A stretch of DNA of 64,000 nucleotides from the IMG/VR virus record IMGVR_UViG_3300033182_000484, positions 1 to 64,000 of that record. One strand, given 5' to 3'. Shown here piece by piece: positions 8,878-58,874 of the stretch. A model generated the notes under the pieces. That model saw only the letters and a program-made list of their open reading frames with translations, had not been told where the DNA came from and did no database searches. The translations under genes and the position numbers were made by a program. Position 1 is the first letter of the stretch, and each line of letters begins with the position of its first letter. Source of the DNA: a virus.

Positions 8878-8887
8878 CATCTTTTTT

Positions 8888-8900
8888 CACAATTTTTGTG
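8888..8900. promoter_or_regulatory. Palindrome CACAATTTTTGTG (second operator type)
   Basis: CACAA-TTT-TTGTG, with the 17-base context TTCACAATTTTTGTGCA, is repeated exactly at 44,378-44,394. In both places it ends 11 bases before the plus-strand -35 box and lies between divergent operons, as expected for an activator or repressor site. Confidence 0.65.
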
Positions 8901-8907
8901 CATTTTT

Positions 8908-8938
8908 TTGTGGACACAAAGACGACGCCGTGTATAAT
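8908..8938 (+). promoter_or_regulatory. Plus promoter with operator variant TTGTGGACACAA
   Basis: -35 TGGACA (8911-8916), 16-base spacer, -10 TATAAT (8933-8938). The near-palindrome TTGTGGACACAA (8908-8919), one base off the TGTGGCCACA operator core, covers the -35 box. It would drive the four plus genes from 8965. Confidence 0.75.
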
Positions 8939-10980: not shown

Positions 10981-11204
10981 CAGTCAGGACAATACTGGTA
11001 GGTGCTGTCCTTGCGCAGGGCCTCGGCGACGTTGTCGGCCTTCTTCTTGCCGGACTCCGAGAGGCTCGGACAGATCAGCTCGGTCTTCACCGCGCGATAG
11101 GCCTCGATCACGATCGGGCCAGCGAAACCGACCACGGCAGCGGTGCCGCCGCCACAGCCGGTCAGGAGCGTCCCCGCGAGGACGATGGGGATCCAGCGTT
11201 TCAC
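10980..11204 (-). CDS. Small lipoprotein (o-spanin-like position)
   Basis: A 74-residue protein starting with GTG in a GTGA overlap with the M15 gene. The N-terminus MKRWIPIVLAGTLLTGCGGG is a clear lipoprotein signal with lipobox LTGC. The mature part is short, with two more cysteines. Position in the lysis cassette suggests an outer-membrane spanin partner of the 9,989-10,249 protein, but it lacks the proline-rich look of Rz1. Confidence 0.7.
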   Translation of the reverse strand: MKRWIPIVLAGTLLTGCGGGTAAVVGFAGPIVIEAYRAVKTELICPSLSESGKKKADNVAEALRKDSTYQYCPD

Positions 11205-11845
11205 TTCTTGCCTCCAGTCTTGTGCCGCGCCGGACGCTTCGCGGCGGGCTTCTTGGTGGCGGGCTTCGCCTTGGTCTTCGACTTGGCCGCCGGTTTCGGT
11301 TTCGGCGCGCGAACGGTGCGACCGCTCGGAGACGCCACCGTCGGCTGCGGTGTCGACGGGACGCGGTTGTCGTGCGGACGGTAGACGCCATTGTTGGCCA
11401 CCAGGACCTCGCGCCGGTTGTTCTCGACGCCCTGGACGATCGACGCGTGGATCCACCCGCTGTTCGGGTCGCCGCGCGTGTGATTCTCGAGGATGATCTG
11501 GTCGAAGATCGGAACGCCGCCGCTGATCATCCACTCGAACAGCTCGAAGTTGTCGACCTGGGGGATCTCGAAGTCGACGGCCTCGGCCAGCATGTGCTGA
11601 CTGGTCCCAGCGCCGCCGATCGTCTTGTTCAGTTCCGGGCAGCGATACCAGCTCGACGGAGTGATGGGGTAGCCGAACCGGTCGCGCGGATACTGCAGGA
11701 TGTGCTGCGCCACGCGGGTGGCGTTGGCCATGAGGCGCTTGGGCAGCGTGTTGTCGATACCCAGGCGCATTGCGGTGAGGGACTTCTCGGCCTCCCACAG
11801 GCTGAAGTTCCGGCTCAGTTGGACAGGGATCTTTGCTTCGGGCAT
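11201..11845 (-). CDS. M15-family peptidase endolysin with cationic tail
   Basis: A 214-residue protein with the M15 zinc-peptidase pattern: SSWYRCPELN, then SQH (His84), EAVDF (Asp91) and WIHAS (His133). Such enzymes cut the peptide part of peptidoglycan and serve as phage endolysins. The last about 55 residues are a Pro/Ala/Lys-rich histone-like tail, which might help it bind lipopolysaccharide or envelope. No signal peptide. The start MPEAKI was chosen for the ribosome site ggaggcgac; the operator palindrome at 11,863-11,874 lies just upstream. Confidence 0.85.
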   Translation of the reverse strand: MPEAKIPVQLSRNFSLWEAEKSLTAMRLGIDNTLPKRLMANATRVAQHILQYPRDRFGYPITPSSWYRCPELNKTIGGAGTSQHMLAEAVDFEIPQVDNFELFEWMISGGVPIFDQIILENHTRGDPNSGWIHASIVQGVENNRREVLVANNGVYRPHDNRVPSTPQPTVASPSGRTVRAPKPKPAAKSKTKAKPATKKPAAKRPARHKTGGKK

Positions 11846-11862: not shown

Positions 11863-11874
11863 GTGTGGCCACAC
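11863..11874 (-). promoter_or_regulatory. Operator palindrome GTGTGGCCACAC before the endolysin
   Basis: Contains the perfect core TGTGGCCACA (11864-11873), 18 bases upstream of the endolysin start. On the minus strand a weak promoter (TTGATC, 17-base spacer, TAGTGT) would place the palindrome at -10/+1. It is one of six perfect copies in the window. Confidence 0.65.
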
Positions 11875-41525: not shown

Positions 41526-41547
41526 TCAGAAATCAATTGATTTCTGA
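41526..41547. repeat. Perfect 22-bp palindrome before terS
   Basis: TCAGAAATCAA followed directly by its reverse complement. It sits 25 bases upstream of the terminase small-subunit start. It could be a terminator/attenuator separating the RHH gene pair from the terminase operon, or a protein-binding site linked to packaging. Confidence 0.8.
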
Positions 41548-41744
41548 TCCGGCGGCGGGCATGTACGGGGGGCTGGAGCTGCCTCCCCAGCACCTTGAGA
41601 GCCGTCCGAGACCTCGTGTTTCGGGCGGCTTTCTGCTTTCTCGTAGCAGGTCAGATGCAGGTCCTCGCCGGTGCCGAGCGTGACGAATCGGTCCGCCTGA
41701 TAATCGATCGGGAGATCGCACGCGGCGCAGGTCGAGCGGCGCAT
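41526..41744 (-). CDS. Small Cys-containing protein before terS
   Basis: A 72-residue protein with CAAC at the N-terminus and a later Cys (HLTCYEK), a half zinc knuckle, then a Pro/Ala-rich tail. Its ATG overlaps the stop of the RHH gene (TGATG). The 22-bp palindrome at 41,526-41,547 includes its last codons and stop. Confidence 0.6.
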   Translation of the reverse strand: MRRSTCAACDLPIDYQADRFVTLGTGEDLHLTCYEKAESRPKHEVSDGSQGAGEAAPAPRTCPPPDQKSIDF

Positions 41745-41902
41745 CAGTCCATCCCCAGCTGCTCCTTCAGGAGCTGCCGAACGAGGTCGCTCGTGGTCAT
41801 GCCCTGGGCCGCCGCGTAGTTGTCGGCTGCCTCCTTGAGTGCCGGGTCGATCCGAAGTTTCAAGATCGCCGACATCGGTTCTGGTAGCTGTTCATCATCC
41901 AT
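41744..41902 (-). CDS. Ribbon-helix-helix (CopG/Arc-type) regulator
   Basis: A 52-residue protein. Translation of the minus strand gives MDDEQLPEPM, then SAILKLRIDPALKEAADNY (ribbon and first helix) and AAAQGMTTSDLVRQLLKEQL (second helix), the classic RHH layout of small phage/plasmid repressors that bind palindromes as dimers. No ribosome site is visible before the ATG, so it may be translated leaderless. It is divergent from the operon at 42,001, with three copies of the TGTGGCCACA-type operator between them, and leads the minus-strand late region. Strong candidate for the operator-binding protein. Confidence 0.8.
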   Translation of the reverse strand: MDDEQLPEPMSAILKLRIDPALKEAADNYAAAQGMTTSDLVRQLLKEQLGMD

Positions 41903-41909
41903 GTTTCAG

Positions 41910-41919
41910 TGTTGCCACA
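41910..41919. promoter_or_regulatory. Operator variant TGTTGCCACA (site 1 of 3)
   Basis: One mismatch from TGTGGCCACA. It lies eight bases upstream of the RHH start codon, so binding here would directly block RHH expression (autoregulation). Confidence 0.65.
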
Positions 41920-41929
41920 GCTCGATCTC

Positions 41930-41939
41930 TGTGTCCACA
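41930..41939. promoter_or_regulatory. Operator variant TGTGTCCACA (site 2 of 3)
   Basis: One mismatch from the consensus; its reverse complement TGTGGACACA is the variant found at 8,909-8,918. Centre is 20 bases from site 1 and 23 from site 3. Confidence 0.65.
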
Positions 41940-41945
41940 AAGTTG

Positions 41946-41973
41946 TTGACATTGTGGCCACAACCTCTACAAT
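41946..41973 (+). promoter_or_regulatory. Plus promoter with operator TTGTGGCCACAA in its spacer (site 3 of 3)
   Basis: -35 TTGACA (41946-41951), 16-base spacer, -10 TACAAT (41968-41973). The 12-bp palindrome TTGTGGCCACAA (41952-41963) fills the spacer directly after the -35 box, so a bound protein would exclude RNA polymerase. Drives the plus operon from 42,001. Confidence 0.8.
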
Positions 41974-42000: not shown

Positions 42001-42207
42001 ATGCAGACCCAGACCGACTTTCTGATCGACAACCAGCGCACCATCTTCGCGGTGATCCCCGTGTCCGACGAGGGCCGCGCGTGGATCGACGAGCACGTCG
42101 CCGACGATGCGCTGTGGTTCGGCAAGAGCCTGATCGTCGAGCACCGGTTCATCGAATCGCTCGTCGACGGCTTCCAGAGCGACGGCCTCACCTTCGAGGC
42201 CGCGTAA
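42001..42207 (+). CDS. Small early protein
   Basis: A 68-residue protein beginning MQTQTDFLIDNQRTIFAVIPVSDEG split into two strands, then a helix and FIESLVDGFQSDGLTFEA. Similar 65-70-residue proteins are frequent at the start of phage early operons. Ribosome site ggaggcgaaacc. Function unknown. Confidence 0.7.
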   Translation: MQTQTDFLIDNQRTIFAVIPVSDEGRAWIDEHVADDALWFGKSLIVEHRFIESLVDGFQSDGLTFEAA

Positions 42208-43485: not shown

Positions 43486-43701
43486 TCAGCTGCTCGGGCT
43501 GTCGTACGGGGGCAACCCCTTTGCCAGCGCCGCGCAGGCGTGCGCCATCACGCGCGGGATCGGCGTCTCGCCCCGCAGCCAGTTGCGGATCGTGTTGCGA
43601 TGGACGCCCAGCTCGTTGGCCGCAGCCGTGTCGCTCCAGGCCATCTCCTCCAGGAACGCCTCCAGGTCGGCAGGCGTCATGGATCCAGGCACGCGGGTCA
43701 T
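43486..43701 (-). CDS. XRE/Cro-type HTH regulator
   Basis: A 71-residue protein whose centre, SDTAAANELGVHRNTIRNWLRGET, is a helix-turn-helix of the Cro/XRE type; the last part forms the following helices. Size and isolated position, last in a minus operon driven from the 44.35-kb promoter with an operator in its spacer, suggest a Cro-like early regulator. It is the alternative candidate for binding the genome-wide operators. Confidence 0.8.
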   Translation of the reverse strand: MTRVPGSMTPADLEAFLEEMAWSDTAAANELGVHRNTIRNWLRGETPIPRVMAHACAALAKGLPPYDSPSS

Positions 43702-43931: not shown

Positions 43932-44038
43932 CACTGCCTCCTGTGCTTGCTCTTGCGGGTGTACTTGGTGCGGTCCCGGACCACCTGGGGCCGGATCCGC
44001 CGCACGGCCTTCGCGACCGGATTACGCTTGCTCGACAT
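43931..44038 (-). CDS. 35-residue very basic protein
   Basis: Encodes MSSKRNPVAKAVRRIRPQVV followed by a Lys/Arg/Thr-rich end (about 40 percent Lys+Arg). It overlaps the stop of the upstream gene by 17 bases and the next start by one, so it fits the operon without gaps. Probably binds nucleic acid; no family recognised. Confidence 0.6.
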   Translation of the reverse strand: MSSKRNPVAKAVRRIRPQVVRDRTKYTRKSKHRRQ

Positions 44039-44315
44039 CCAACTTCTCCCTCTCGGCGATGGCGTCCACCAGGACACCGTTCAGCCGCTCGACTTCCAAC
44101 ATCCGGCGGCAGTGCATCTCGACCCGGGTCTCCTCGGGCTGGTGCGGGCTCGTCAGCCACTGCTGGGCCGACGCCGTCACCTGCTCGATCGACTTGCGGG
44201 TCCGCTCGATCTTCAGATCCAGGTTCCGCAGCTGCGTCTCGCGGGACCAGATCGGACGACGGCCACGCAGAGTGTCGTAGCGCAGTTCGTCAGCAGCGGT
44301 GAAATTCCAAGCCAT
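44022..44315 (-). CDS. Unknown helical protein
   Basis: A 97-residue, Arg/Glu-rich helical protein (LRNLDLKIERTRKSIEQVT). First gene of the 43.5-44.3-kb minus operon; ribosome site gaggaggcgatc, promoter at 44,343-44,370. Function unknown. Confidence 0.65.
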   Translation of the reverse strand: MAWNFTAADELRYDTLRGRRPIWSRETQLRNLDLKIERTRKSIEQVTASAQQWLTSPHQPEETRVEMHCRRMLEVERLNGVLVDAIAEREKLDVEQA

Positions 44316-44342: not shown

Positions 44343-44370
44343 ATTCTACATGAACGTGGCCACATGTCCA
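44343..44370 (-). promoter_or_regulatory. Minus promoter with operator in its spacer
   Basis: Minus strand: -35 TGGACA (44370-44365), 16-base spacer, -10 TAGAAT (44348-44343). The spacer begins with TGTGGCCACG, one mismatch from the operator consensus, the same geometry as at 41,946-41,973. Drives the operon that ends with the XRE gene. Confidence 0.75.
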
Positions 44371-44379
44371 GAACTATTT

Positions 44380-44392
44380 CACAATTTTTGTG
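44380..44392. promoter_or_regulatory. Palindrome CACAATTTTTGTG (second copy)
   Basis: Identical to 8,888-8,900, with the same 11-base step from its end to the plus -35 box. Found only at these two divergent promoter regions. Confidence 0.65.
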
Positions 44393-44402
44393 CACTTTGT
44401 TG

Positions 44403-46347: not shown

Positions 46348-46824
46348 TCACATGCCCATCGTCAGCCTCCCTTTTCTCATGGCGCGCTTGATCTTGCGAC
46401 GTCGCGCGGCGGCCTGCGATGGCGTCAAATATGCCCGAGCGTGGTGCTCGGCGCAATACGTTGATCGCTCCCCGCCATCCTTGGTCGTGACCTTCTCGCC
46501 GCAGTAGTACGCGTTCGCCGGATCCTGGAGCGGGTCGCCCTCGATCCAGCAGCACCGGCTCGGCGGCGGCGGATCGTTCTTCAGCTCGTAGGGCCGCCTG
46601 CCAGGGCGATACGGTTGGGCCACCCTGACGCCGCCCAGGGCCGCGCCAGCGAGCGATGCGGGCCTCTTCCGGCTCGGCAGCCCCAGGCGCGCCTTCCGGC
46701 CCACCACGGCGTTCCTGGACGTCTCCATCACCACGCCGATCTGGGTGATGCTCAGGCCCTGCTCCCACAGGTCCTTCAGCAGCTGGTCGCGCTCCGGCGT
46801 CCAGGGACGGATCGTCTCGGACAT
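46348..46824 (-). CDS. gcrA: GcrA-like cell-cycle regulator
   Basis: A 158-residue protein with the GcrA N-terminal HTH pattern (WTPERDQLLKDLWEQGLSITQIGVV broken by a turn, then TSRNAVVGRKARLGLPSR) and the C-terminal Cys/His part (CCWIEGDP, YYCGEK, YCAEHHARAYL) that in host GcrA binds sigma-70. Host GcrA activates promoters carrying GANTC sites methylated by CcrM in Alphaproteobacteria. A phage copy could steer host transcription or the cell cycle. Start 46824 gives TGATG overlap with the upstream gene and follows ggggaggcg. Confidence 0.85.
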   Translation of the reverse strand: MSETIRPWTPERDQLLKDLWEQGLSITQIGVVMETSRNAVVGRKARLGLPSRKRPASLAGAALGGVRVAQPYRPGRRPYELKNDPPPPSRCCWIEGDPLQDPANAYYCGEKVTTKDGGERSTYCAEHHARAYLTPSQAAARRRKIKRAMRKGRLTMGM

Positions 46825-47819
46825 CACCGCCTCCCCAACATCTTGGCCATGATCGCGGCCTTCTGTTTCGTCTCCATGTCGCGCTTGGCATCCTCGGGCC
46901 CGTACGACCCCTCGCCGCGCTGGAACGGCGTGCCGCTCGGCTTGGTGCTGTCGACGCTGAAATACCGCACCGACCCGGTGCCGGTGGCCACCGCGTCCCT
47001 GGCCACGGCGTCGAGCCGGTCGCGGTACATCTTCGTCAGCTGCTTCTGCAGGCCCTCGATCATCCGGCCATGGCTGACGCCTGGGCCCTCCTTCTGCAGC
47101 TCCGCCTGCACCGTGTCGAGGATGTAGTCGACCTTCTGGCCGTGCTGCCGCGCGCCGACCTCGCCGAACACCGGCACCTCGCCCGTGTAGCCCGGGCCCG
47201 TGTGCTCTGGATCCGGCGTGTCGATCTTGATCGTGGATCCGTCGCCCAGGACCAGCTTGCTGTTGTCGGGCTCGACCCTGGCCGCACCCGTCCGCAGCAC
47301 GTCAGGTCGCAGCAGCTTGCCGCCGAATCCCGCCCACTGATTCTGCTCGCGCATGGCCGCCTGGAACCGGCCCTTGGCCGACACGGACATGCCGGTGATG
47401 TCGAACATGGCCGGGCGCTCACGCATGGCCGCACGCTGCATCAGACGCGCGCCAGCCTGCAGAGGCTGGGTGACGCACGGCGGCTCGTCGCCATCCTCGA
47501 TCCGCTCCCGGACCATGCCGCAGGTCTCGCAGCGGTCGGTGTAGATCGAATACGCCCGGCACGGCCTGACGATCCGGTCACCGACCGGCGCGACGGTCAG
47601 CGCCGAGTCCAGCTCATAGGAGCGAACCCTGCCCCTCTCGGTGGTGCGGAATGAGAGCCGGGTCGTCTCGATGACGCTCCCGATGCTCCCCCTCGGCGGT
47701 GGGGCCGAGCTGGGGGATATCGCCTCGAAAATGTTCATTAGCCAGTCGCTCGGCAGCCCGTTCGGGACGCCAGTGACCCCAGCCATCGCCTGAACCATCC
47801 CGGCCCGAGTGATCGCCAT
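46824..47819 (-). CDS. Unknown 331-residue protein
   Basis: No family recognised. It has CETCG and a later Cys (PPCVT) that might bind metal, a central basic helical region, and a helical C-terminus (GRMIEGLQKQLTKMYRDRLDAV). The start MAITRAGM has a clear ribosome site (ggaggcggaag), although it lies 206 bases inside the preceding methyltransferase frame. Confidence 0.65.
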   Translation of the reverse strand: MAITRAGMVQAMAGVTGVPNGLPSDWLMNIFEAISPSSAPPPRGSIGSVIETTRLSFRTTERGRVRSYELDSALTVAPVGDRIVRPCRAYSIYTDRCETCGMVRERIEDGDEPPCVTQPLQAGARLMQRAAMRERPAMFDITGMSVSAKGRFQAAMREQNQWAGFGGKLLRPDVLRTGAARVEPDNSKLVLGDGSTIKIDTPDPEHTGPGYTGEVPVFGEVGARQHGQKVDYILDTVQAELQKEGPGVSHGRMIEGLQKQLTKMYRDRLDAVARDAVATGTGSVRYFSVDSTKPSGTPFQRGEGSYGPEDAKRDMETKQKAAIMAKMLGRR

Positions 47820-50971: not shown

Positions 50972-51009
50972 TGTGGCCACATCGCATCATGGATCGGCCA
51001 CGGTGTCAA
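50972..51009 (-). promoter_or_regulatory. Minus promoter with operator TGTGGCCACA at its -10
   Basis: Minus strand: -35 TTGACA (51009-51004), 17-base spacer, weak -10 TGCGAT (50986-50981), and the perfect operator TGTGGCCACA (50981-50972) starting at the last -10 base. Would control the 50,376-49,428 operon. Confidence 0.7.
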
Positions 51010-51015
51010 GCGAGG

Positions 51016-51693
51016 TCAGAAGCCAACGTACAGCTCCCAGTCGGTTGCGATCAGGTCTTCCATCGTCGGGCCCCACACGCCCAGGTCACGGTTCGGGTGC
51101 CGCATGTCGATGTGCGCCATGTACGACACCTCCGTGCCCTCGGTGAAGACCCCGTTCAGCGGCGGGCGGTTCACCTTGAACGACGACCCGGCGACGAAGT
51201 AGATGAACGCCTCGTCGACCCAGGCCTTCCGCCGGACGCAGTCACCGTCCCGCAGGTGCTTCAGCGCCCAGCCGAAATCCGTCACCTCGATCGACGTCGC
51301 CGTGGTCTTGTACGGCTCCAGCCAGCTCGCCCAGTTCCATTGGGTGTCCTGGCCGTCGGACGCGAGCATCGCGTCCAGGCGCGCGTAGACCCAGTAGTCG
51401 GTGGACGGATTCAGCACGCTCTCGCCGGGTCGAACGAAGCCCGGGAACAGCCGCCACCACACCGGCACCATGGGCGGGACGCTCGCACAGAACTCGCGCC
51501 ACCACTCCTGGCAGGCCTGCGCCATCGCGCAGGCCTCATTCAGCGTGCCTGGGGCGCTGGCCTTCACGGTCGCGTACGACCGCCCCGTCGCGTCGTTGAT
51601 GCCCCGCCTCGACGGGTTCGGCATCACCGGGTTCCGGTGCATGATCAGCATGTGCAGGTCTTCGATGGTGGTCGGGTCGCCGTAGTCGTTCAT
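51016..51693 (-). CDS. Tad2-like (DUF2829) anti-Thoeris candidate with N-terminal extension
   Basis: A 225-residue protein. Residues about 139-223 match DUF2829/Tad2 closely: FGWALKHLRDGDCVRRKAW, then IYFVAGSSFKVNRPPLNG, FTEGTEVSYMAHIDMR and DLIATDWELY. Tad2 proteins are phage sponges that bind the cyclic ADP-ribose-type signal of Thoeris immunity. The first about 135 residues (Trp/Pro-rich, helical) are an extra domain not part of ordinary 85-90-residue Tad2 and not recognised. Ribosome site ggaggcgaag. Confidence 0.85.
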   Translation of the reverse strand: MNDYGDPTTIEDLHMLIMHRNPVMPNPSRRGINDATGRSYATVKASAPGTLNEACAMAQACQEWWREFCASVPPMVPVWWRLFPGFVRPGESVLNPSTDYWVYARLDAMLASDGQDTQWNWASWLEPYKTTATSIEVTDFGWALKHLRDGDCVRRKAWVDEAFIYFVAGSSFKVNRPPLNGVFTEGTEVSYMAHIDMRHPNRDLGVWGPTMEDLIATDWELYVGF

Positions 51694-52243: not shown

Positions 52244-53152
52244 CTACGGGCCCTTGCGGAACGACCCGACGTTGGCCTCCCACTTGTTGTGGGTCACGCC
52301 GGTGTCCTGCTCCCAGAACCCAAGCTGCATCGTCGGCGCGGTGTTCCCGACGATCGTCGAGTGTGTCGCGCCATTGGTCACCACGAAATGATCGCCGTCT
52401 CGTGTGGCCACGTCAACCCCCACGTTGTGCGCCACGACGTGATGCGCTCCGCCGAGCATGTGCGCCCCCACCCAGATCGCGTTCGGATTCGCCGTCGAGT
52501 GCCGGTAGATCGTCGCCGCGACCGCGTGCACCTGATGCGCTCCCTCGGCGCGCCAGCCACGCACTCGGCAGGCCATGTGACCGCCGATGAACTGGCAGCC
52601 GACCTGGGGGTAGGACTGGCTGTCCATGCGCCAACCGTAGTTGCAGGCGATGGCGTCATGCCCGATGAACTTGATGCCCTCGGTCTTGCCCCGGGTCGTG
52701 ATGTCCCGGTTGAAGTGCTGGGTCTCGCCGCCGCGCACCGTGCCGCCGACACAGTCCTCGAAGTCATAGCCGCGCCCGTTGAACCCGGTCTTGTCGCCGA
52801 CCATGAACACGTTCGAGATCTCGGGCCGGAATCGACCGACCATGTGCAGGGCCTTGTGGTGCCACTCGCTGCCGGACGTCACGTACTCGACGTTGCGGAT
52901 CGTGTCGCCCTTGCCCTCCTGCCAGTTCCAGTCGCCGATCACGCGCAGGCCCTCGTCGCGCTGCCGCGTCGGCGTCACGCTGAGATCCGCGATCTCGATC
53001 CGGGGCATGCGGTTCCCGCGCCAGGGGGTCATGGCGCGCAGGTCGAACTCCCGGGACGGGAGCCAGTCGATGCCAGCGCCGCGTCCGACGACGCGGACGA
53101 CGTTGCCCCAGGTCTCGACGTCAACCCGGTGCCCGGGCATGTGGTGGGTCAT
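52244..53152 (-). CDS. Right-handed beta-helix protein
   Basis: A 302-residue protein with Gly/Asn/Val/His-rich repeats spaced like beta-helix turns (GCQFIGGHMACRVRGWRAEG, HHVVAHNVGVDVATRDGDHF, NGATHSTIVGNTA). The fold is typical of tailspikes and polysaccharide lyases. It lies among early genes, 11 kb from the virion block, so it may be a late-acquired spike or an intracellular beta-helix. Start at 53152 follows gaggagcacgcc. Confidence 0.65.
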   Translation of the reverse strand: MTHHMPGHRVDVETWGNVVRVVGRGAGIDWLPSREFDLRAMTPWRGNRMPRIEIADLSVTPTRQRDEGLRVIGDWNWQEGKGDTIRNVEYVTSGSEWHHKALHMVGRFRPEISNVFMVGDKTGFNGRGYDFEDCVGGTVRGGETQHFNRDITTRGKTEGIKFIGHDAIACNYGWRMDSQSYPQVGCQFIGGHMACRVRGWRAEGAHQVHAVAATIYRHSTANPNAIWVGAHMLGGAHHVVAHNVGVDVATRDGDHFVVTNGATHSTIVGNTAPTMQLGFWEQDTGVTHNKWEANVGSFRKGP

Positions 53153-55604: not shown

Positions 55605-55632
55605 TGTGGCCACATGCGTGGTCGCGTGTCAA
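55605..55632 (-). promoter_or_regulatory. TTGACA box and perfect operator TGTGGCCACA
   Basis: Minus strand: TTGACA (55632-55627), formed over the stop codon of the upstream gene, then 12 bases, then TGTGGCCACA (55614-55605). No good -10 is visible, so the promoter is tentative; the operator itself is exact. Confidence 0.6.
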
Positions 55633-56630: not shown

Positions 56631-56852
56631 TCAGTCTGGGTACTTGCGGTTAGGCCACGCCTCCATGGCCTCCGCCAGGACACGCGCCTCTCGCACCTTC
56701 TCCGCAGGCGCGCCCTTCATCTCAGCCAGCCGCGCCCAGTGACGCACGGTCATGGGCGCAAGCCTGTCCTGGGCACGCAGCACGAACACCGGTTCGTCGT
56801 CTGCGGCCTTGGCGATGCAGCCGCTTTCAAGCTCAACGCTCTTGATTGCCAT
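56631..56852 (-). CDS. Small helical protein behind an operator
   Basis: A 73-residue protein (MAIKSVELESGCIAKAADDE...) with helices and a basic end. The perfect operator (56,869-56,878) is 16 bases upstream of its start, just before the ribosome site ggaggcgaag. Confidence 0.65.
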   Translation of the reverse strand: MAIKSVELESGCIAKAADDEPVFVLRAQDRLAPMTVRHWARLAEMKGAPAEKVREARVLAEAMEAWPNRKYPD

Positions 56853-57129
56853 CTTCGCCTCCTGTGTTTGTGGCCACATGATCCTGCAGCGCCTGGGCGA
56901 GCGCTGTCAAGGGATCGATCTTCGGGTTCACGTCCGTCGCGTTCAGCATGACGTGCGTGCGGCGGATCACCGGCAGCTCGCGCACGAGGTGCGGCGGCCC
57001 GTCGAATGCATCCAGCAGCGCCTCGACGGCAAGCCTGGGCACCTGCATCATCTCCCAGGTCCCGCCGTACTCGGGTGTGGCGCGCAGGCCTCGGCCCTCG
57101 CGCATCTCGTCGAAGATCTCGTCAGCCAT
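56833..57129 (-). CDS. Small unknown protein
   Basis: A 98-residue protein (MADEIFDEMREGRGLRATPE...). Its start resembles that of the 57,350 gene (MSDELFAEMRAAPVRL), suggesting distant duplication. Its last codons contain an operator copy and overlap the next gene by 20 bases. Confidence 0.65.
   Translation of the reverse strand: MADEIFDEMREGRGLRATPEYGGTWEMMQVPRLAVEALLDAFDGPPHLVRELPVIRRTHVMLNATDVNPKIDPLTALAQALQDHVATNTGGEDGNQER
56869..56910 (-). promoter_or_regulatory. TTGACA box and perfect operator inside a gene end
   Basis: Minus strand: TTGACA (56910-56905), 18-base spacer, CAGGAT as weak -10, then operator TGTGGCCACA (56878-56869). It lies within the last codons of the 56,833 gene and before the 56,631-56,852 gene. 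Confidence 0.6.
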
Positions 57130-58394: not shown

Positions 58395-58673
58395 ATTGCG
58401 CCTCCGATCTGGCCCCTCTGGGCACTGTGATTTCTGGCCTAAGTCGTTGATATTGTTACGCTTTTTCCATTTATCAAGCGCTTCCTTGATCAGTTAAGTC
58501 CATGTTTTCATTTACCTTTTCAGCTTCATCAATGACTTACGAGGTTTTTGTAACCGTTGTAACGGGGTTGTAACGGACACATTGTAACACCCTAACCCAT
58601 TGATATACCTTATATATATATATAATAGTTACAAAAGTTACATATTATATATATATAGTACGCGTCTGCGTCT

Positions 58674-58712
58674 CTCTATACCCCCCTCCCTCCTTTTCTC
58701 TATACCCCCCTC
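58674..58712. repeat. 15-bp direct repeat CTCTATACCCCCCTC in a pyrimidine tract
   Basis: Copies start at 58674 and 58698, 24 bases apart, within a stretch of almost only C and T on the plus strand. May form unusual DNA structure. Confidence 0.7.
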
Positions 58713-58758
58713 TCTATTTTTCCTCCTCTATAGGTGTGCCTCAGAAAGTTGTAACATA

Positions 58759-58768
58759 TGTGGCCACA
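58759..58768. promoter_or_regulatory. Perfect operator TGTGGCCACA in the repeat region
   Basis: Exact copy of the operator, flanked by iteron repeats. On the minus strand TATGTT directly after it could be a -10, but no good -35 was found. Confidence 0.6.
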
Positions 58769-58772
58769 ATGG

Positions 58773-58785
58773 GGTTAAGTCGTTG
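58773..58785. repeat. Direct repeat GGTTAAGTCGTTG, right copy
   Basis: Exact partner of 58,371-58,383, 402 bases apart. Confidence 0.7.
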
Positions 58786-58874
58786 GCGCATAAGGGTAAA
58801 AACCGTTACAAATGGCCCGTTACAAGGCCGTTACACTCTGCCCGAGAGGGCCATTTGTAACGGAATAGGGAAGG

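Follow-up and report, generated by a model that had tools for sequence, protein, structure and literature searches.

Ribbon-helix-helix (RHH) repressors are widespread, yet it is seldom possible to predict their operators from sequence. The locus considered here, a 52-residue RHH gene facing a divergent operon across 98 bp, raises the question of which DNA so small a protein reads, and whether it does so only beside its own gene or across the phage genome. The window analyzed, a stretch of 64,000 nucleotides, is nearly the whole of a 64,680-bp viral record, the last 680 bases of which lie beyond it. The same region, at about 76% DNA identity, is found in two relatives, the viral contigs L007 and L008. 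The locus comprises:

41744..41902, minus strand: putative RHH repressor gene, 52 aa, beta-strand I13-L-K15-L-R17, Pfam RHH_1
41908..41937, minus strand: candidate RHH promoter TGGACA-N18-AACACT, weak (8/12 consensus matches), spacing kept in L007
41910..41919, no strand: operator 1 (predicted), TGTTGCCACA, overlapping the candidate -10 of the RHH promoter
41930..41939, no strand: operator 2 (predicted), TGTGTCCACA, overlapping the candidate -35 (TGGACA) of the RHH promoter
41946..41973, plus strand: plus promoter TTGACA(41946-41951)-N16-TACAAT(41968-41973), driving the operon from 42001; L007 version TTGACG-N16-TATAGT
41953..41962, no strand: operator 3 (predicted), a perfect TGTGGCCACA, in the plus-promoter spacer
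42001..42207, plus strand: first gene of the divergent operon, no assigned function, 68 aa, 71% identity in L007

As the original prediction held, the minus strand carries an open reading frame for a 52-residue protein that passes the Pfam RHH_1 cut-off (a profile match, 22.0 vs 20.5 bits), and three palindromes with TGTGGCCACA-like cores, centered 20 and 23 bp apart, separate this gene from the operon at 42001; the first is 8 bp away from the start codon of the RHH gene, and the third sits within the TTGACA-N16-TACAAT spacer of the plus promoter. The L007 and L008 homologue of the protein is 67% identical, with an identical I-L-K-L-R-I-D strand. An AlphaFold model of moderate confidence (pLDDT 74) places helices at residues 20-32 and 37-49 and leaves the beta-strand unformed in the monomer; its fold matches were led by solved RHH proteins, at E-values that were not significant. 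Named phage records held neither a homologue nor similar DNA, and an alignment search with the protein returned the two known close relatives and nothing further.

The three-palindrome array is retained in L007 and L008. In L007, the intergenic region likewise measures 98 bp and keeps the -35/N16/-10 layout, and 27 of 30 operator positions are conserved relative to the window vs 21 of 54 elsewhere in the spacer, the latter figure leaving out the 14 nt adjoining the plus start codon (Fisher p = 3e-6). Because operators 1 and 2 lie on the candidate RHH promoter and operator 3 on the divergent promoter, the protein is predicted to repress both. Three RHH dimers would occupy 41910-41962, two on the protein's own promoter and one on that of the divergent operon, each inserting a two-stranded beta-sheet into the major groove of the 10-bp TGTGGCCACA, with base contacts made by K15 and R17. 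An mRNA from the candidate RHH promoter would be nearly leaderless.

Copies of the palindrome also lie far from this array. TGTGGCCACA is the commonest 10-bp palindrome of the window, and its presence is not due to chance, since six exact copies were found against 0.02-0.07 expected (order-3 and order-1 models). The 680 bases beyond the window add two exact copies (64094 and 64169), bringing the record total to eight, and about 12 sites are present in the 64,680 bp when one mismatch is allowed and the copy at 52403, inside a gene and regarded as chance, is left out. The distant sites within the window are:

8909..8918, no strand: TGTGGACACA, on the -35 of TGGACA-N16-TATAAT (plus strand)
11864..11873, no strand: exact, 19 bp upstream of the endolysin-like gene 11201-11845 (minus strand)
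44355..44364, no strand: CGTGGCCACA, in the spacer of TGGACA-N16-TAGAAT (minus strand); L007 5633
50972..50981, no strand: exact, directly past the -10 of TTGACA-N17-TGCGAT (minus strand); L007 3659
55605..55614, no strand: exact, on TTGACA-N18-CACACT (minus strand)
56869..56878, no strand: exact, directly past TTGACA-N18-CAGGAT and ahead of the Shine-Dalgarno of 56631-56852 (minus strand)
58759..58768, no strand: exact, in the long non-coding stretch 58395-58874

Seven of the 12 sites overlap a promoter (at least 9/12 consensus matches), compared to 9.7% of random non-coding positions (binomial p 4e-5), while the promoter scan at 58759 and 64169 yielded no good promoter. One conserved element thus recurs at many intergenic or promoter positions of this phage, and its targets include a divergent recE/recT region, an HTH-gene operon (site 44355 lies upstream of 44022-44315 and of the HTH gene 43486-43701), an endolysin-like gene, and several small-gene operons. 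Three distant positions are matched in L007, namely the two marked in the list and L007 561, which lies near the counterpart of the 56 kb operon.

Taken together, we estimate a probability of roughly 0.8 that the 52-aa protein is a minimal RHH autorepressor which also represses promoters phage-wide through TGTGGCCACA. The autoregulatory array, divergent promoter, and shared distant sites of the original prediction are well supported, the distant sites being the main point. The same protein would also occupy some nine more sites, located on promoters of early, middle, and lysis genes. As 52 residues leave no room for a ligand domain, control would presumably operate through concentration: autorepression would keep the repressor level low, and replicated genome copies could titrate it.

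An independent view of the palindrome came from a scan of viral contigs that took no account of proteins and asked only for a pair of TGTGGCCACA copies separated by 8-38 bp. Twelve of the 16 loci retrieved have an adjoining small RHH or RHH-like gene whose strand reads K-x-R, several of these being near copies such that about five families are independent, and one, L175, having been read by eye; among the other four, L171, L172, and L176 are repeats within long ORFs, and L168 is without explanation. A second scan with another spacing added one more clear case, L214, plus its truncated copy L217. K-x-R was found at 0 of 29 loci for the control palindrome TGGTGCACCA (p 6e-8 against the 12 of 16 for TGTGGCCACA) and at 0 of 56 for the control palindrome TGTAATTACA, and it was absent from about 47 background bacterial RHH proteins, which were taken by profile regardless of operators. 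Across ten aligned sequences, the others being 12-67% identical to the window protein (12-37% apart from the L007 homologue), K15 and R17 were the only invariant columns, an invariance that provides indirect support for an RHH dimer contacting DNA through these two strand residues.

The companion genes were recognized on different grounds. L214 matches a profile built from the background RHH proteins, and this profile detects three companion genes only, two of these weakly, so that the companion families rest on position and strand pattern, to which Pfam NikA-like matches are added for L170 and L174. No Pfam RHH match was obtained for the two largest families (RKFRAP and MKVRVT), which are labeled RHH-like by strand pattern, size, and position only; the RKFRAP model is of low quality (pLDDT 61) and matched no RHH fold, and this family was not found in named phages or plasmids. 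A related RHH family from enteric loci, QFKMRIDPALKE, with an F-K-M-R strand, carries two upstream TAGGTGGCC copies (L003-L005, L115, L128-L163) that are invariant in 28 distinct aligned copies, bar TAAAGTGGCC in one L115 copy, and Klebsiella phage P12620-1 encodes a 60% identical protein listed as hypothetical. Eleven other viral records, ranging up to 119 kb, have all their exact TGTGGCCACA copies clustered beside the K-x-R gene, which points to local autoregulation there and phage-wide action here.

A possible chemical basis for this pairing comes from RelB, in which strand residues N5 and R7 contact bases and the operator hexads read [A/T]TGT[A/C]A (PMC2812701). In the window protein these two positions align with K and R, and the hexad is TTGTGG; the difference would be accounted for if lysine prefers G and asparagine prefers A. 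Conversely, this would place N-x-R genes beside TGTAATTACA, a prediction that failed, with Q-x-R, H-x-R, and T-x-R RHH genes seen instead, and a single-promoter pattern, TTGACANTGTGGCCACA, was dropped after giving 25 matches in viral contigs, near chance by estimate. Separately, two ACTGGTGCACCAGT copies in L187, from about 4358, adjoin an RHH-like gene whose strand is of the T-x-R type (KATIRIP), possibly a second strand-operator pairing. We lean toward a general rule in which a K-x-R RHH strand reads TGTGGCCACA, serving local autoregulation in at least five divergent phage families and, here, a genome-wide regulon under a 52-aa ligand-free repressor that may sense copy number by titration. 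As the DNA motif alone retrieved small genes with two common strand residues, this amounts to a testable sequence-to-operator rule. No report of TGTGGCCACA as an RHH operator was found in the open-licence literature; what appears new is the phage-wide regulon together with the link between K-x-R strands and TGTGGCCACA.

Two alternatives depart from our reading of the RHH protein. TGTGGCCACA could instead be bound by the HTH protein 43486-43701 or by some other regulator of phage or host origin, leaving the RHH gene as just one target: HTH repressors often have phage-wide operators, and this Cro-like HTH gene sits in the operon carrying site 44355. However, the densest TGTGGCCACA cluster is at the RHH gene, and in unrelated phages, picked out solely by the DNA motif, this motif adjoins K-x-R RHH-like genes. 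In addition, all information in the combined site profile falls on exactly 10 contiguous positions, with none beyond them; such an uninterrupted 10-mer fits a single RHH dimer better than an HTH dimer, whose half-sites are typically spaced. We consider an HTH binder improbable, the more so because a different repeat, TTCACAATTTTTGTGCA, is a better candidate operator for the HTH protein 43486-43701. This 17-bp element occurs exactly at 8886-8902 and 44378-44394 (0.02 expected with up to 3 mismatches); both copies are close to RHH sites, and L007 has TCACAACGATTGTGA near its matching site. The RHH protein might also be an antitoxin of the RelB/DinJ type, paired with a toxin and regulating its own expression through an ordinary operator, given that DinJ proteins are its closest solved relatives (E 0.02) and that its Pfam RelB score falls just below the cut-off. 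Yet the next ORF, 41526-41744, matches no toxin or other family and lacks a counterpart in L007, the 52-aa protein stops 3 residues past helix 2 with no toxin-binding C-terminal tail, and dispersed operators would be unexpected for such a pair; the toxin-antitoxin reading was rejected, and we regard it as highly improbable.

If the RHH protein is indeed the phage-wide repressor, its role in the infection cycle can be read in two ways. As the lysogeny (immunity) repressor of a temperate phage, it would occupy every site in the prophage, silence lytic genes there, and give superinfection immunity, a role for which phage-wide operators on early promoters have precedents in the mycobacteriophage stoperator repressors (PMC9283540) and SPbeta MrpR (PMC10516654). 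This role seems doubtful, as the record, which may be incomplete, contains no tyrosine or serine recombinase match, the array is predicted to repress the repressor's own gene, and a light search revealed no prophage copy. The same lack of an integrase is consistent with a lytic-only timing factor that turns down early promoters and is titrated by replicated genomes before late expression, as are the probable autorepression, the absence of a ligand domain, the roughly 12 sites per genome, and the location of sites at recE/recT and endolysin genes. We give this timing role about an even chance, considering that some sites may activate rather than repress.

Two elements of the original prediction are not supported. 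The array had been likened to lambda OR; as regards a bistable switch of that type, only one repressor gene flanks the array, and neither a second protein competing for the same sites nor a recombinase match was found. The RHH gene had also been placed at the head of the late region, with which it is co-directional; between it and the terminase genes lie a conserved hairpin and a 22-bp palindrome, which leave its leadership of the late operon unsupported. The hairpin, at 41601-41640, is also present in L007 with a changed sequence and could separate RHH from the late operon. The perfect palindrome, TCAGAAATCAATTGATTTCTGA at 41526-41547, lies just upstream of the terminase genes, has its core kept in L007, and could be a terminator, packaging, or operator site.

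Elsewhere in the window, 46348-46827 (minus strand) encodes a GcrA-like cell-cycle regulator (Pfam 65 bits, conserved in L007), which suggests an alphaproteobacterial host, and the product of 51016-51693 (minus strand) has at its C-terminus a Tad2-like domain (Thoeris anti-defence; 52 bits vs a cut-off of 25).

Overall, this phage appears to offer one of the smallest possible phage-wide repressors. It provides a simple setting in which to study how timing, immunity, or the sensing of copy number is controlled by an autorepressor that takes no ligand and has about a dozen sites. P22 Arc and Mnt are small phage RHH repressors acting beside their own genes, so the contrast initially drawn, of a switch like Arc/Mnt but built on an RHH protein, does not hold, Arc and Mnt being RHH proteins themselves. 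The difference from immI, where two repressors control an antirepressor gene, is instead that one RHH repressor stands at the array here and that the sites are phage-wide. The lambda OR array is shared by two mutually antagonistic repressors, whereas a single repressor gene is present here and the nearby HTH gene has another candidate operator. Escherichia coli RelB/DinJ and relO resemble this system in having an RHH domain whose strand is followed by R-I-D and 12-bp palindromic half-sites, but here there is no toxin partner or tail, the sites are many and dispersed, and the operator core is GGCC rather than an A/T-rich center. Viral RHH regulators with several sites are known from archaeal viruses: SIRV1 SvtR, a repressor of its own gene, also binds at three further sites in the virus, and AFV6 AvtR has eight potential sites (PMC5569661). 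In contrast, the present case involves a bacterial phage, sigma70-type promoters, and about 12 sites with a short perfect palindrome of another motif. In logic the system resembles the L5-type stoperator repressors and SPbeta MrpR with its SPBRE element, where one phage repressor acts on a conserved element repeated genome-wide (PMC9283540, PMC10516654). The L5-type repressor binds an asymmetric site as a two-domain monomer, and MrpR is a tyrosine-recombinase-like protein, whereas here the same phage-wide logic would be built on an RHH protein, with sites that are symmetric and placed on promoters.
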